Shown: positions 50,850 to 64,000 of the stretch, in pieces
Numbering within the stretch: the stretch's first letter is position 1
Layout of the letters: each line of letters begins with the position of its first letter
NCBI GenBank assembly: GCA_015056125.1
Contig: SVGW01000001.1
Span: 62,001 to 126,000 of the forward strand
DNA length: 64,000 nucleotides
From: Clostridiales bacterium
GTDB lineage: Bacteria > Bacillota > Clostridia > Christensenellales > Aristaeellaceae
Reading direction: 5' to 3'
Program-made: the position numbers and the translations under genes
The notes under the pieces: model-generated
The model's database searches: none
Told to the model about the DNA's origin: nothing
The model's input: only the letters and a program-made list of their open reading frames with translations

Positions 50850-51250
50850 AAATATGCAAAAAACTTGATGGGATGCATCGAAGGGACGCAGCCCTTCGAC
50901 AAAAATCCGCAGCCGGCGGCATGCATGGCGGCGAGGGCCGTAGCCTGCCGCCGCCTGTGGCGGATGCAGGCAGGAGAAGGCCCAATGAGGCACAGAGCCT
51001 GTAAGCGGGACTTTACCCCGCTTACAGGCGACAATGCCGAATTGTGAGGTTCGGAAGTATTCCGCTTCCTATATCATTTTACGGCCGTAAAAATAGGCTT
51101 TCCATCCCTTTTCATAGGGCTGGAAAGTCATTTTTGCAGTAAATGCGATGGATCGAATGGAAGACTGCTTTAGCTGACTTCCATTCGCAGTTTGTCGAAA
51201 ATACTTTTTCGACAAACTGAAGCCACTTCGCTTGGTTGCGAAGTGGCTTC
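50850..51250 (+). repeat. Family-C structured repeat, copy 1 (multi-hairpin, ends in terminator-like hairpin 51219-51250)
   Basis: aaaaataggctttccatccc..; cgaatggaag/cttccattcg; tttgtcgaaaa/ttttcgacaaa; gaagccacttcgc/gcgaagtggcttc. Confidence 0.75.
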
Positions 51251-52630: not shown

Positions 52631-52846
52631 CAGACTGTCAAAAAAACGCCCCAAATGCATCGAAGAGCTACATTCCGCGAGATCAAAGGTCACTTTGCCT
52701 TCTTTATTAATGTGCGACTACAAAAATAGGCTTTTCAGCTCGGGCTGAAAAGCCATTTTTGCAGTAAATGGGATGGATCAAATGAAAAACAGCTTTTGCC
52801 GATTTTCATTTGCAGGATGGCAAAAATACTTTTTGGACATCCCGGG
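52631..52846 (+). repeat. Family-C structured repeat, copy 2
   Basis: cagactgtcaaaaaaacgcc...caaaaataggcttttcagctcgggctgaaaagccatttttgcagtaaatgggatggatcaaatg... Confidence 0.7.
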
Positions 52847-54533: not shown

Positions 54534-54572
54534 TTTTCGCAACCTCCAAAACGCCTGAATGATTCAGGCGTT

Positions 54573-54830
54573 TCAGTTTGTCGAAAAAGTATTTTCGACA
54601 AAATGCGAAAGGAAGTCAGCTAAAGCAGTCTTCCATTCGATCCATCACATTTACTGCAAAAATGGCTTTCCAGCCCTGTGAAAAGGGCTGGAAAGCCTAT
54701 TTTTGCGATCGTAAATTGATATAGGAAGCGGAATACTTCCGCTCCTCGCCGCCGCACATGTCGCCGGCTGCGGATTTCAGTCGAAGGGCAGCGGCCCTTC
54801 GACGCATCCCAGGGGTTTTTTGACAGTCTG
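54573..54830 (-). repeat. Family-C structured repeat, copy 3 (reverse orientation)
   Basis: tttgtcgaaaaagtattttcgacaaa...gcaaaaatggctttccagccctgtgaaaagggctggaaagcctatttttgc...tttttgacagtctg. Confidence 0.75.
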
Positions 54831-61819: not shown

Positions 61820-61987
61820 TTAGCCGCAGTATGCTTGCGGCTGAGACCATAAGGAGAGCTGATATGCATCGATTTTTTTGCTCAGTTCGATTACCAGAGG
61901 CATGTTTCCTGCATCGTAAGCTTCGCAGAGCTGATTTTCAATGGCAAGCAGAGCGTCGGTAGAAAGGGAAGAATTGATGGTATCCAT
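61820..61987 (-). CDS. Spo0E-like sporulation regulatory microprotein candidate (55 aa)
   Basis: MDTINSSLSTDALLAIENQLCEAYDAGNMPLVIELSKKIDAYQLSLWSQPQAYCG; LSxxIDxY motif; RBS aaaggagg; absent from supplied ORF track (below cutoff). Confidence 0.6.
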   Translation of the reverse strand: MDTINSSLSTDALLAIENQLCEAYDAGNMPLVIELSKKIDAYQLSLWSQPQAYCG

Positions 61988-62046
61988 GAAAGCACTCCTC
62001 CTTTACGCGGCTTTTTTCTTTTTTCGCCGTCGTATATAGCATACGC

Positions 62047-62114
62047 CGTCGAATGCGGCAATGCAAGGAGAAATATCGTCGAATGCTGTCGAATGCGCTA
62101 TATTTCGTTCGACA
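62047..62114. promoter_or_regulatory. Cluster of Spo0A-box-like sites upstream of Spo0E-like ORF
   Basis: CGTCGAA 62047-62053, CGTCGAA 62077-62083, TGTCGAA 62087-62093, TTCGACA 62108-62114 (reverse TGTCGAA). Confidence 0.5.
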
Positions 62115-62141
62115 CAATACGACATCCACAAGATGTGGTGC

Positions 62142-63674
62142 TTAAGGGTTCGCAGAATGGAGAATATTCAGATTGGGCCAGAAATCCCCGGGCAAAAAAA
62201 GCGCGCCGGCCAGGGTTTCGGGCTGCTCTCCCATGATGTAAATGCTCACCTTTTTTACTGGCGATAGCTCCGTTAAGGTATTGACCAGTGAATAGATCAG
62301 CAGCCGCTCCTGGGTTTCGTCCATCCCTTCACACAGCATGGGCAGCTGACTGGAAAAATTCAGCACCAGGGTATCCCCATCCAAAGCCACGCCCAGCAGA
62401 TCGGCATCCCGAAGAGCCTGGGGCAGCGCAGGAGAAAGGGCGGAAACGCTGTCAATGCTCTGGGGCCCCAGAATCAATTGATTCACCAGCGCCCGGGCAT
62501 TGCGGGCTTCATAGAAGGGAATAGCCCGGGATACCTTTTGCAGCATCCCCTCCCGGGTGGCAAAATAGAGGGTACATTCATCCAGCAGGAAGGATACAAA
62601 ATCCCGCCGACGGATCAATCCATCCGCAAAATAAATGGTTTCCCCGGCGCCGGTGTAGGTGGCGGAGGGGGTAAGGGCGGTAAGGCGCTCGCTACCGATG
62701 GAAATGCTGATGCCGTCCAGCCCGGGGAGGAAGGTGGTGAGGGTGTAGGTGAGGGAGGCTACCATCACCGAGCGGGTAATGCCCGCTTCCAGCAGTTGGG
62801 CGTTAAGGGCCTCATCAAAATGCAAAGCCAGCCTGCGCATGCCCCCCGTTTCTTCCAATACGGGCTCCTCGGAAAGCAAGCCTACAAGATCGGGATATTT
62901 GGGCAAACCGGGCAAATATTCTGCGCCGGAGGATAGTGCTTCCAGCAGCGTTTGCGCCATAGCGGCGGGGGAAATTTCTGCAAAGGATAGGGTGCGGGCT
63001 TCGCAAAGAATGCCTTTTCCCGCGGTGGCAGGATAGTATAAAGCGGCGGAAATGGCCCGGCGGGCTGCCGTTTTGGGGGCGGATGCCCGGGCCCACAGGG
63101 TGCTCAGATCCTCCCTGGTGTTGCTTTGGAAGCAGCCGGCGGGCAGAGTGGCGGCGATATCTAAGCCGGGCTGTACACCGGCGATGAGCACGTTTACATA
63201 GCTGATATCCCCAAATTGGCACAGGGTGTTTGCCAGGGCCTGGCCCACAGTAAACAGCGCTTCATGGGAAAGGCGGAGGGCAGAGGCGCTCAGGCTCACA
63301 GTAGCTACCCCACCCGATACCTCCACGGCGTCCGTACTGGCCAGGGAAAGAGCCACTCCTTCTCCCAGGGGGGCAGCCAATTCAGTACCGGGATGGACAA
63401 GCAAAGCGCGGCAAAGGGCCTCCGCATTAGAATGGGAAGCGGATAAAGTGAGCGTTTCCGGTACGGAAAGAAGCCGCGTTCCGTCTACCGAGGGCAGATA
63501 AAGAAGCGCGGTTTGGATGTAGGTTTGATTTACGTCATTTTCCGGAGCAATATGCTTGCTTTCCACAGGGGGCAGCGTCACATTGGGCGCGGCAGAAGGA
63601 TTTTGCGCTCCGCAGCCGGATAAAAGCACACAGGCGCACAGCAGGCATAGAATACGGTAAAGGCGGCGGGCCAT
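62142..63674 (-). CDS. GerMN-domain lipoprotein (sporulation/germination type)
   Basis: Lipobox LLSGCGAQ; tandem GerM-like regions (VATVSLSASALRLSHEALFTVGQALANTLCQFGDISYVNVLIAG; LNFSSQLPMLCEGMDETQERLLIYSLVNTLTELSPVKKVSIYIMGEQ). Confidence 0.75.
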   Translation of the reverse strand: MARRLYRILCLLCACVLLSGCGAQNPSAAPNVTLPPVESKHIAPENDVNQTYIQTALLYLPSVDGTRLLSVPETLTLSASHSNAEALCRALLVHPGTELAAPLGEGVALSLASTDAVEVSGGVATVSLSASALRLSHEALFTVGQALANTLCQFGDISYVNVLIAGVQPGLDIAATLPAGCFQSNTREDLSTLWARASAPKTAARRAISAALYYPATAGKGILCEARTLSFAEISPAAMAQTLLEALSSGAEYLPGLPKYPDLVGLLSEEPVLEETGGMRRLALHFDEALNAQLLEAGITRSVMVASLTYTLTTFLPGLDGISISIGSERLTALTPSATYTGAGETIYFADGLIRRRDFVSFLLDECTLYFATREGMLQKVSRAIPFYEARNARALVNQLILGPQSIDSVSALSPALPQALRDADLLGVALDGDTLVLNFSSQLPMLCEGMDETQERLLIYSLVNTLTELSPVKKVSIYIMGEQPETLAGALFLPGDFWPNLNILHSANP

Positions 63675-63685
63675 GGCTTTTCTCC

Positions 63686-64000
63686 TTACTTTTGATTCAT
63701 CATGGCGATCAGGCGGGAATAGGGAATTTTCCACAGCCCTTCCTCCCGGCACAGGTGCACGGGATAGCCATCCAGGCTTAAATCGCTGCTGGAGGAGTGC
63801 AGGGCCAAATCGGCGCTGAGCACGGCGCTCTGGCCGGAGGAAGCTACATTGCCGGGGGAAAGCAGGAAACCGGTGAGGGCCTGGGCGGCGGCAAAGGCGC
63901 TGTAGGCGCTTTGCTCATCGGGCCGGGGATCCTGAATGGCTCCTTTGGCGGTGAGGGAATAGAGGGTGGGCCAATCCTGGATCATCCAGGCGTTGAGGAT
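63686..64000 (-). CDS. Hypothetical protein, N-terminus beyond window edge
   Basis: Open frame to window end (…ILNAWMIQDWPTLYS…), 12 nt upstream of the GerMN gene start. Confidence 0.5.
   Translation of the reverse strand: MLNAWMIQDWPTLYSLTAKGAIQDPRPDEQSAYSAFAAAQALTGFLLSPGNVASSGQSAVLSADLALHSSSSDLSLDGYPVHLCREEGLWKIPYSRLIAMMNQK

Follow-up and report, generated by a model that had tools for sequence, protein, structure and literature searches.

Does the short reading frame near one end of this DNA encode an antagonist of Spo0A that is itself under Spo0A control? The first-pass annotation of the window (the whole 64,000-nucleotide stretch that was analyzed) had proposed such an arrangement, with a 55-amino-acid (aa) Spo0E-like open reading frame (ORF), a cluster of Spo0A boxes upstream of it, and a negative-feedback loop connecting the two. 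Taken as a whole, the evidence described here suggests that the gene probably encodes a Spo0E-like antagonist of phosphorylated Spo0A (Spo0A~P) that is subject to direct Spo0A feedback and, in addition, to control by NrdR.

The 55-aa gene and its relatives

The ORF and its Shine-Dalgarno (SD) sequence lie exactly where they were first described, and a predicted RNA structure separates them from the promoter.

61820 to 61987, minus strand: 55-aa ORF with an ATG start, encoding a predicted Spo0E-like two-helix hairpin with an SxxxD motif (S36, D40)
61997 to 62004, minus strand: Shine-Dalgarno sequence AAAGGAGG of the ORF; an SD is found in nearly all relatives
62004 to 62034, minus strand: predicted 5' UTR stem-loop near the predicted transcription start (z=-4.8)

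A search for related loci with this locus gave no matches because the small-gene family is too divergent. When 151 genomes were searched at the protein level, many of those from the same genus proved to contain short, divergent ORFs. A profile search placed single-copy relatives in 27 of the 29 genomes of that genus, including all nine of good quality (completeness of 90% or more and little contamination). For genomes left out of profile building, the matches had E values of 7e-16 to 2e-8. The members within the genus agree in length, start, and SD and have the pattern LRxxLxxAYxxxDxxxxxxLSxxIDxxQLxxW in common. A wider profile recovered about nine further members of 50-65 aa from other genera of the same taxonomic family, nearly all with SxxxD; length across the small-gene family is 50-70 aa. 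D40 is invariant among the aligned members and S36 is present in at least 90%. Beyond the taxonomic family, matches in the sampled order fall mostly inside long ORFs or are short and weak. Public contigs that carry this promoter come from metagenome-assembled genomes labeled as uncultured Clostridiales, Clostridia, or Christensenellaceae, and the titles of several point to the ruminant gut.

The ORF is unannotated and has no family match, as would be expected if it were spurious and the conserved DNA had some other role. This is extremely improbable, since the protein motif, SD, start, and length are kept at 18-34% identity in many genomes whose neighboring genes differ. On this comparative evidence, conservation of the reading frame already refutes the idea, and the ORF is confirmed as a real, conserved, single-copy gene. 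Conservation in relatives extends to the boxes as well as the ORF. The gene and its promoter stay together while the surrounding genes change from genome to genome. The gene upstream, on the same strand, encodes a GerM-type sporulation/germination protein (window 62142-63752; Pfam Germane, E=2.4e-33), a linkage that is not kept in relatives; elsewhere the neighbors are SerC-, phosphofructokinase-, or PHP-domain-like proteins (names assigned by eye). A role for the upstream elements in serving a divergent neighbor was ruled out because the neighbors vary while promoter and ORF remain joined. The 5' UTR stem-loop has a mean z of -2.4 over 22 loci (mononucleotide shuffles) and occurs in most relatives at a similar place with differing sequence; it may resemble the stem-loops of stabilized mRNAs.

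The promoter and its Spo0A boxes

The promoter and the four TGTCGAA-like heptamers reported earlier were all recovered in place.

62038 to 62043, minus strand: -10 element TATGCT
62061 to 62066, minus strand: -35 element TTGCAT, with a 17-bp spacer
62047 to 62053, plus strand: predicted Spo0A box CGTCGAA, center -19, between the -35 and -10 elements; in 14 of 22 promoters of the genus and 0 of 9 from other genera
62077 to 62083, plus strand: predicted Spo0A box CGTCGAA, center -49
62087 to 62093, plus strand: predicted Spo0A box TGTCGAA, center -59; place and orientation common to other genera and to spoIIE promoters
62108 to 62114, minus strand: predicted Spo0A box TGTCGAA, center -80, with a conserved CGAAATAT after it and an overlap with NrdR box 2 (see below)

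In B. subtilis and C. difficile, experiments established TGTCGAA as the Spo0A-box consensus (PMC3485338). Of the 10 YGTCGAA sites in the window, four fall within 68 bp at this promoter. Chance does not account for this clustering, as 200 sequences of 64 kb simulated with a first-order Markov model had at most two such sites in any 75 bp. In 22 promoters of the genus, TTCGAC/GTCGAA hexamers average 2.8 per ~100 bp versus 0.06 expected, with the fetched loci themselves as background. When these 22 promoters are aligned, the boxes center at -19, -49, -59, and -80 (sometimes -90), roughly on one face of the helix. Among nine promoters from other genera, a box is found at -59 in five, at -49 in one, and at -69 in one, with orientation unchanged; of the remaining two, one has a box near -46 (its -10 element is uncertain) and one has no box. 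Elsewhere in the window, exact TGTCGAA pairs at 51193/51208 and 54579/54594 are part of an unrelated interspersed repeat, a 176-nt inverted repeat (51046-51221 and 54572-54747, 93% complementary) that contains TGTCGAA-N8-TTCGACA and has partial copies at 52742-52839 and 50869-50936. These pairs were therefore rejected as a Spo0A operator cluster.

The tandem arrangement TTCGACRnnnTTCGACR, with 10-bp spacing, occurs once in the 2.86-Mb assembly, at this promoter. It was dropped as a genome-wide finder of the Spo0A regulon, and known Spo0A targets were examined instead. The genes looked for, spo0A itself (Spo0A_C, E=1e-39; recognition helix B. subtilis-like by eye), spoIIAA, and spoIIE, are all present in the genome. 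In the same genus, the SigH-like promoter of spoIIAA (assigned by eye) is preceded by TGTCGAACG, and spoIIE has TTCGACA/TTCGACGG at -58/-59 and -36/-37. Its occurrence before spoIIAA and spoIIE too makes it very probable that the TGTCGAA-type motif serves as the Spo0A box in these bacteria. With conserved boxes at the promoter, the same motif at known targets, and Spo0A encoded in the genome, direct Spo0A control of the small gene is well supported at the level of sequence. The genome also encodes a second, divergent Spo0A-like response regulator (G000:C82:11225-11527, L002; Spo0A_C, E=5e-27). Its receiver has diverged strongly, and this regulator could bind the boxes as well.

A putative NrdR input

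Upstream of the core promoter, rather than over it, lie two palindromes that the first-pass annotation had missed. They constitute the new part of the present reading, a predicted NrdR input, and with them the heptamers make up just half of the conserved regulatory region.

62095 to 62110, no strand assigned: putative NrdR box 2, reading GAACGAAATATAGCGC along the minus strand and sharing bases with the -80 Spo0A box
62126 to 62141, no strand assigned: putative NrdR box 1, reading GCACCACATCTTGTGG along the minus strand; its center is 31 bp from that of box 2, with a 15-bp spacer

The boxes lie at about -72 and -103. One palindrome of the pair resembles CACAATATCTTGTG and the other GAACGAAATATAGTG, and the distance between them is 31 bp, or 32 bp in two genomes. 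The NrdRs that have been studied require dATP plus ATP for binding and recognize box pairs whose spacers measure 14-17 or 24-27 bp (PMC12051234). The two palindromes have a spacer in the 14-17 bp range, nrdR is found in 26 of 29 genomes of the genus, and like boxes (e.g., CCACAATATATTGTGG) precede the ribonucleotide reductase (RNR) gene nrdD, 31 bp apart in the window's own genome. Five nrdD promoters of the genus (L042, L043, L057, L059, and L060) have boxes about 40-41 bp center-to-center, the class with a long spacer of 24-25 bp.

Counted over homologous sequences, which are not independent events, the pair is present in 20 of the 26 genus promoters scored; 16 of the 22 aligned promoters have a pair score of at least 20, and the other six have lost both boxes. 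In the same non-independent set, a pair score of at least 22 is reached by 13 of 22 promoters versus 0 of 1090 background chunks. The joint loss of the boxes and their fit to the consensus are stronger arguments than these counts. A scan of spacings from 20 to 44 bp gave 31 and 33 as the best, the latter probably being the same two boxes in a shifted register, and four held-out genomes had pair scores of 21-23 with 31-bp spacing. The pair is absent from all nine promoters of other genera. One locus from another genus (L227) has a single NrdR-like palindrome, ACACAAGATATGGTGT, just downstream of the small gene's -10 element, an operator-like position. Because box 2 overlaps the -80 Spo0A box, competition between NrdR and Spo0A at that box is possible.

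Relationship of the protein to Spo0E

The functional signature of Spo0E is SxxxD, whose Asp is critical (PMC11115286). Proteins of the small-gene family, at 50-70 aa, fall within the 40-100 aa of Spo0E and carry the motif on the second predicted helix. AlphaFold likewise predicts the two-helix antiparallel hairpin anticipated for the protein (helices 5-26 and 29-47, pLDDT 90-96 in the core). The HMM search against the Spo0E family went the other way: none of 22 members passed the Pfam cut-off (best E=0.069), and Pfam and NCBIfam scans of the members found no family above cut-offs. A Foldseek search returned unspecific helical hairpins with E>1, and a PDB sequence search returned generic ones. 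A PF09388 (Spo0E) scan of this genome likewise gave no match at E<=0.001, and the sampled members of its order also lacked a recognizable classical Spo0E. The classical version thus seems to be missing, which would leave its role otherwise vacant.

The small-gene profile was also compared by hhalign with one built from 21 classical Spo0E proteins of other members of the class. It scored 22.3 (probability 39-53%), above column shuffles (mean 7.7, maximum 13.3, n=200), the reversed profile (8.6), and decoy windows of SpoIIE and NrdD profiles (maximum 14.9, n=60), and the alignment is in register at S..[IL]D. Single sequences scored against the Spo0E HMM overlap with decoys, although 8 of 28 exceed the decoy 99th percentile. 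Thus, the earlier designation as Spo0E-like holds for size, predicted hairpin, SxxxD, and a profile-profile score above all nulls, but no member reaches the Pfam cut-off. It is likely that the small protein works like Spo0E.

Weighing alternative explanations

The small protein might instead be a Spo0A- and NrdR-regulated product without kinship to Spo0E, its hairpin inhibiting another target such as a sporulation kinase (like Sda) or ribonucleotide reductase. Similarity to Spo0E is remote and without a Pfam match, two-helix hairpins are generic, and RNR genes are the usual NrdR targets. However, the in-register match at SxxxD exceeds every null, and similarity to the B. subtilis Sda sequence used here is absent (score 5.9), making this quite unlikely. 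The palindromes, for their part, could be bound by a different regulator, or could resemble NrdR boxes by chance and be retained through the overlapping Spo0A box. Overlap with the -80 box alone would preserve part of box 2, and NrdR boxes in described RNR promoters tend toward the core promoter, unlike here. Box 1, however, is a palindrome of the nrdD type that overlaps no Spo0A box, and the boxes are retained or lost jointly with a 31-bp spacing in nearly all cases. Assignment of the palindromes to something other than NrdR is unlikely.

As for the proposed negative feedback, direct Spo0A control through conserved boxes stands, and the sign is favored by the -49/-59 boxes and countered by the -19 box. 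Activation by Spo0A~P, and hence negative feedback, is favored because the -49/-59 positions are common to spoIIE and other genera. The -19 box is specific to the genus and, from its placement between the -35 and -10 elements, points to repression when Spo0A~P is high. Carried further, a Spo0E-like brake might merely be repressed by Spo0A~P, with the boxes at -19 and upstream shutting the promoter and a double-negative (positive-feedback) commitment switch as the outcome. The promoter does have its own -35 (TTGCAT) and -10 elements at 17-bp spacing, and the -19 box is within the core promoter in 14 of 22 genomes of the genus. That box is nevertheless missing from eight of 22 genus promoters and from all nine of other genera, whereas the -49/-59 boxes are kept at the spoIIE place and orientation; repression as the whole account is thus rather unlikely.

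Proposed circuit

In the preferred reading, Spo0A and NrdR both control a Spo0E-like antagonist of Spo0A~P. This 50-60-aa antiparallel helical hairpin would dock on the receiver domain of Spo0A, by analogy with Spo0E, and block or remove its phosphoryl group. The sigma-A-type promoter of the gene would be under direct control of Spo0A~P. The -49/-59 boxes, kept across genera, would most likely activate and so provide negative feedback, while the -19 box of this genus would limit expression at high Spo0A~P. Where the upstream pair is present, as in most members of this genus, NrdR carrying dATP and ATP would bind it, overlapping the -80 Spo0A box, and reduce expression under plentiful dATP. The brake would then be produced at the onset of Spo0A phosphorylation under high dNTP demand and released once DNA synthesis slows. 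Comparison supports the gene, its motif, its predicted fold, and especially the regulatory sites; the activity of the protein, the direction of Spo0A control, and the effect of NrdR are inferred. Tentatively, and with somewhat less confidence than in the circuit overall, this may amount to a clostridial replication/dNTP checkpoint in which the amount of a Spo0E-like antagonist not described before depends on Spo0A together with the RNR repressor NrdR, and dATP status gates entry into sporulation.

A limited literature search found no paper that links NrdR to development. The restraint of Spo0A and the coupling of sporulation to DNA synthesis are poorly known in the Clostridia, and the small gene is a concrete candidate antagonist. 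Its compact promoter opens both feedback and dNTP sensing to tests by point mutation. The predicted wiring would tie spore formation in gut (rumen) spore-formers to DNA synthesis.

Comparison with known systems

The small proteins resemble the Spo0E family (PF09388; Spo0E, YisI, and YnzD of B. subtilis and Spo0E of C. difficile) in size, predicted antiparallel hairpin, SxxxD with an invariant Asp, Spo0A-encoding host genome, and remote profile similarity. Unlike that family, they have a very short inter-helix loop and a conserved Q(L)xxW past the motif and score below the Pfam cut-off, and the small-gene promoter directly bears predicted Spo0A and NrdR boxes. The feedback is comparable to the spo0A-spo0E loop of B. 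subtilis, but that loop goes via AbrB (PMC3269414) whereas the Spo0A boxes here are directly at the promoter.

Paired 16-bp palindromes with a 15-bp spacer, nrdR in the genome, and like boxes before nrdD are shared with the NrdR regulon; unlike its known members, the small gene does not encode an RNR and has the boxes upstream of its promoter. Sda targets KinA and is under DnaA control. The small protein would resemble the B. subtilis Sda checkpoint as a small hairpin that restrains sporulation according to the status of DNA synthesis, but the probable sensor here is NrdR and the probable target Spo0A. The best reading, by analogy, is that the small gene is the functional equivalent of Spo0E combined with the Sda checkpoint.
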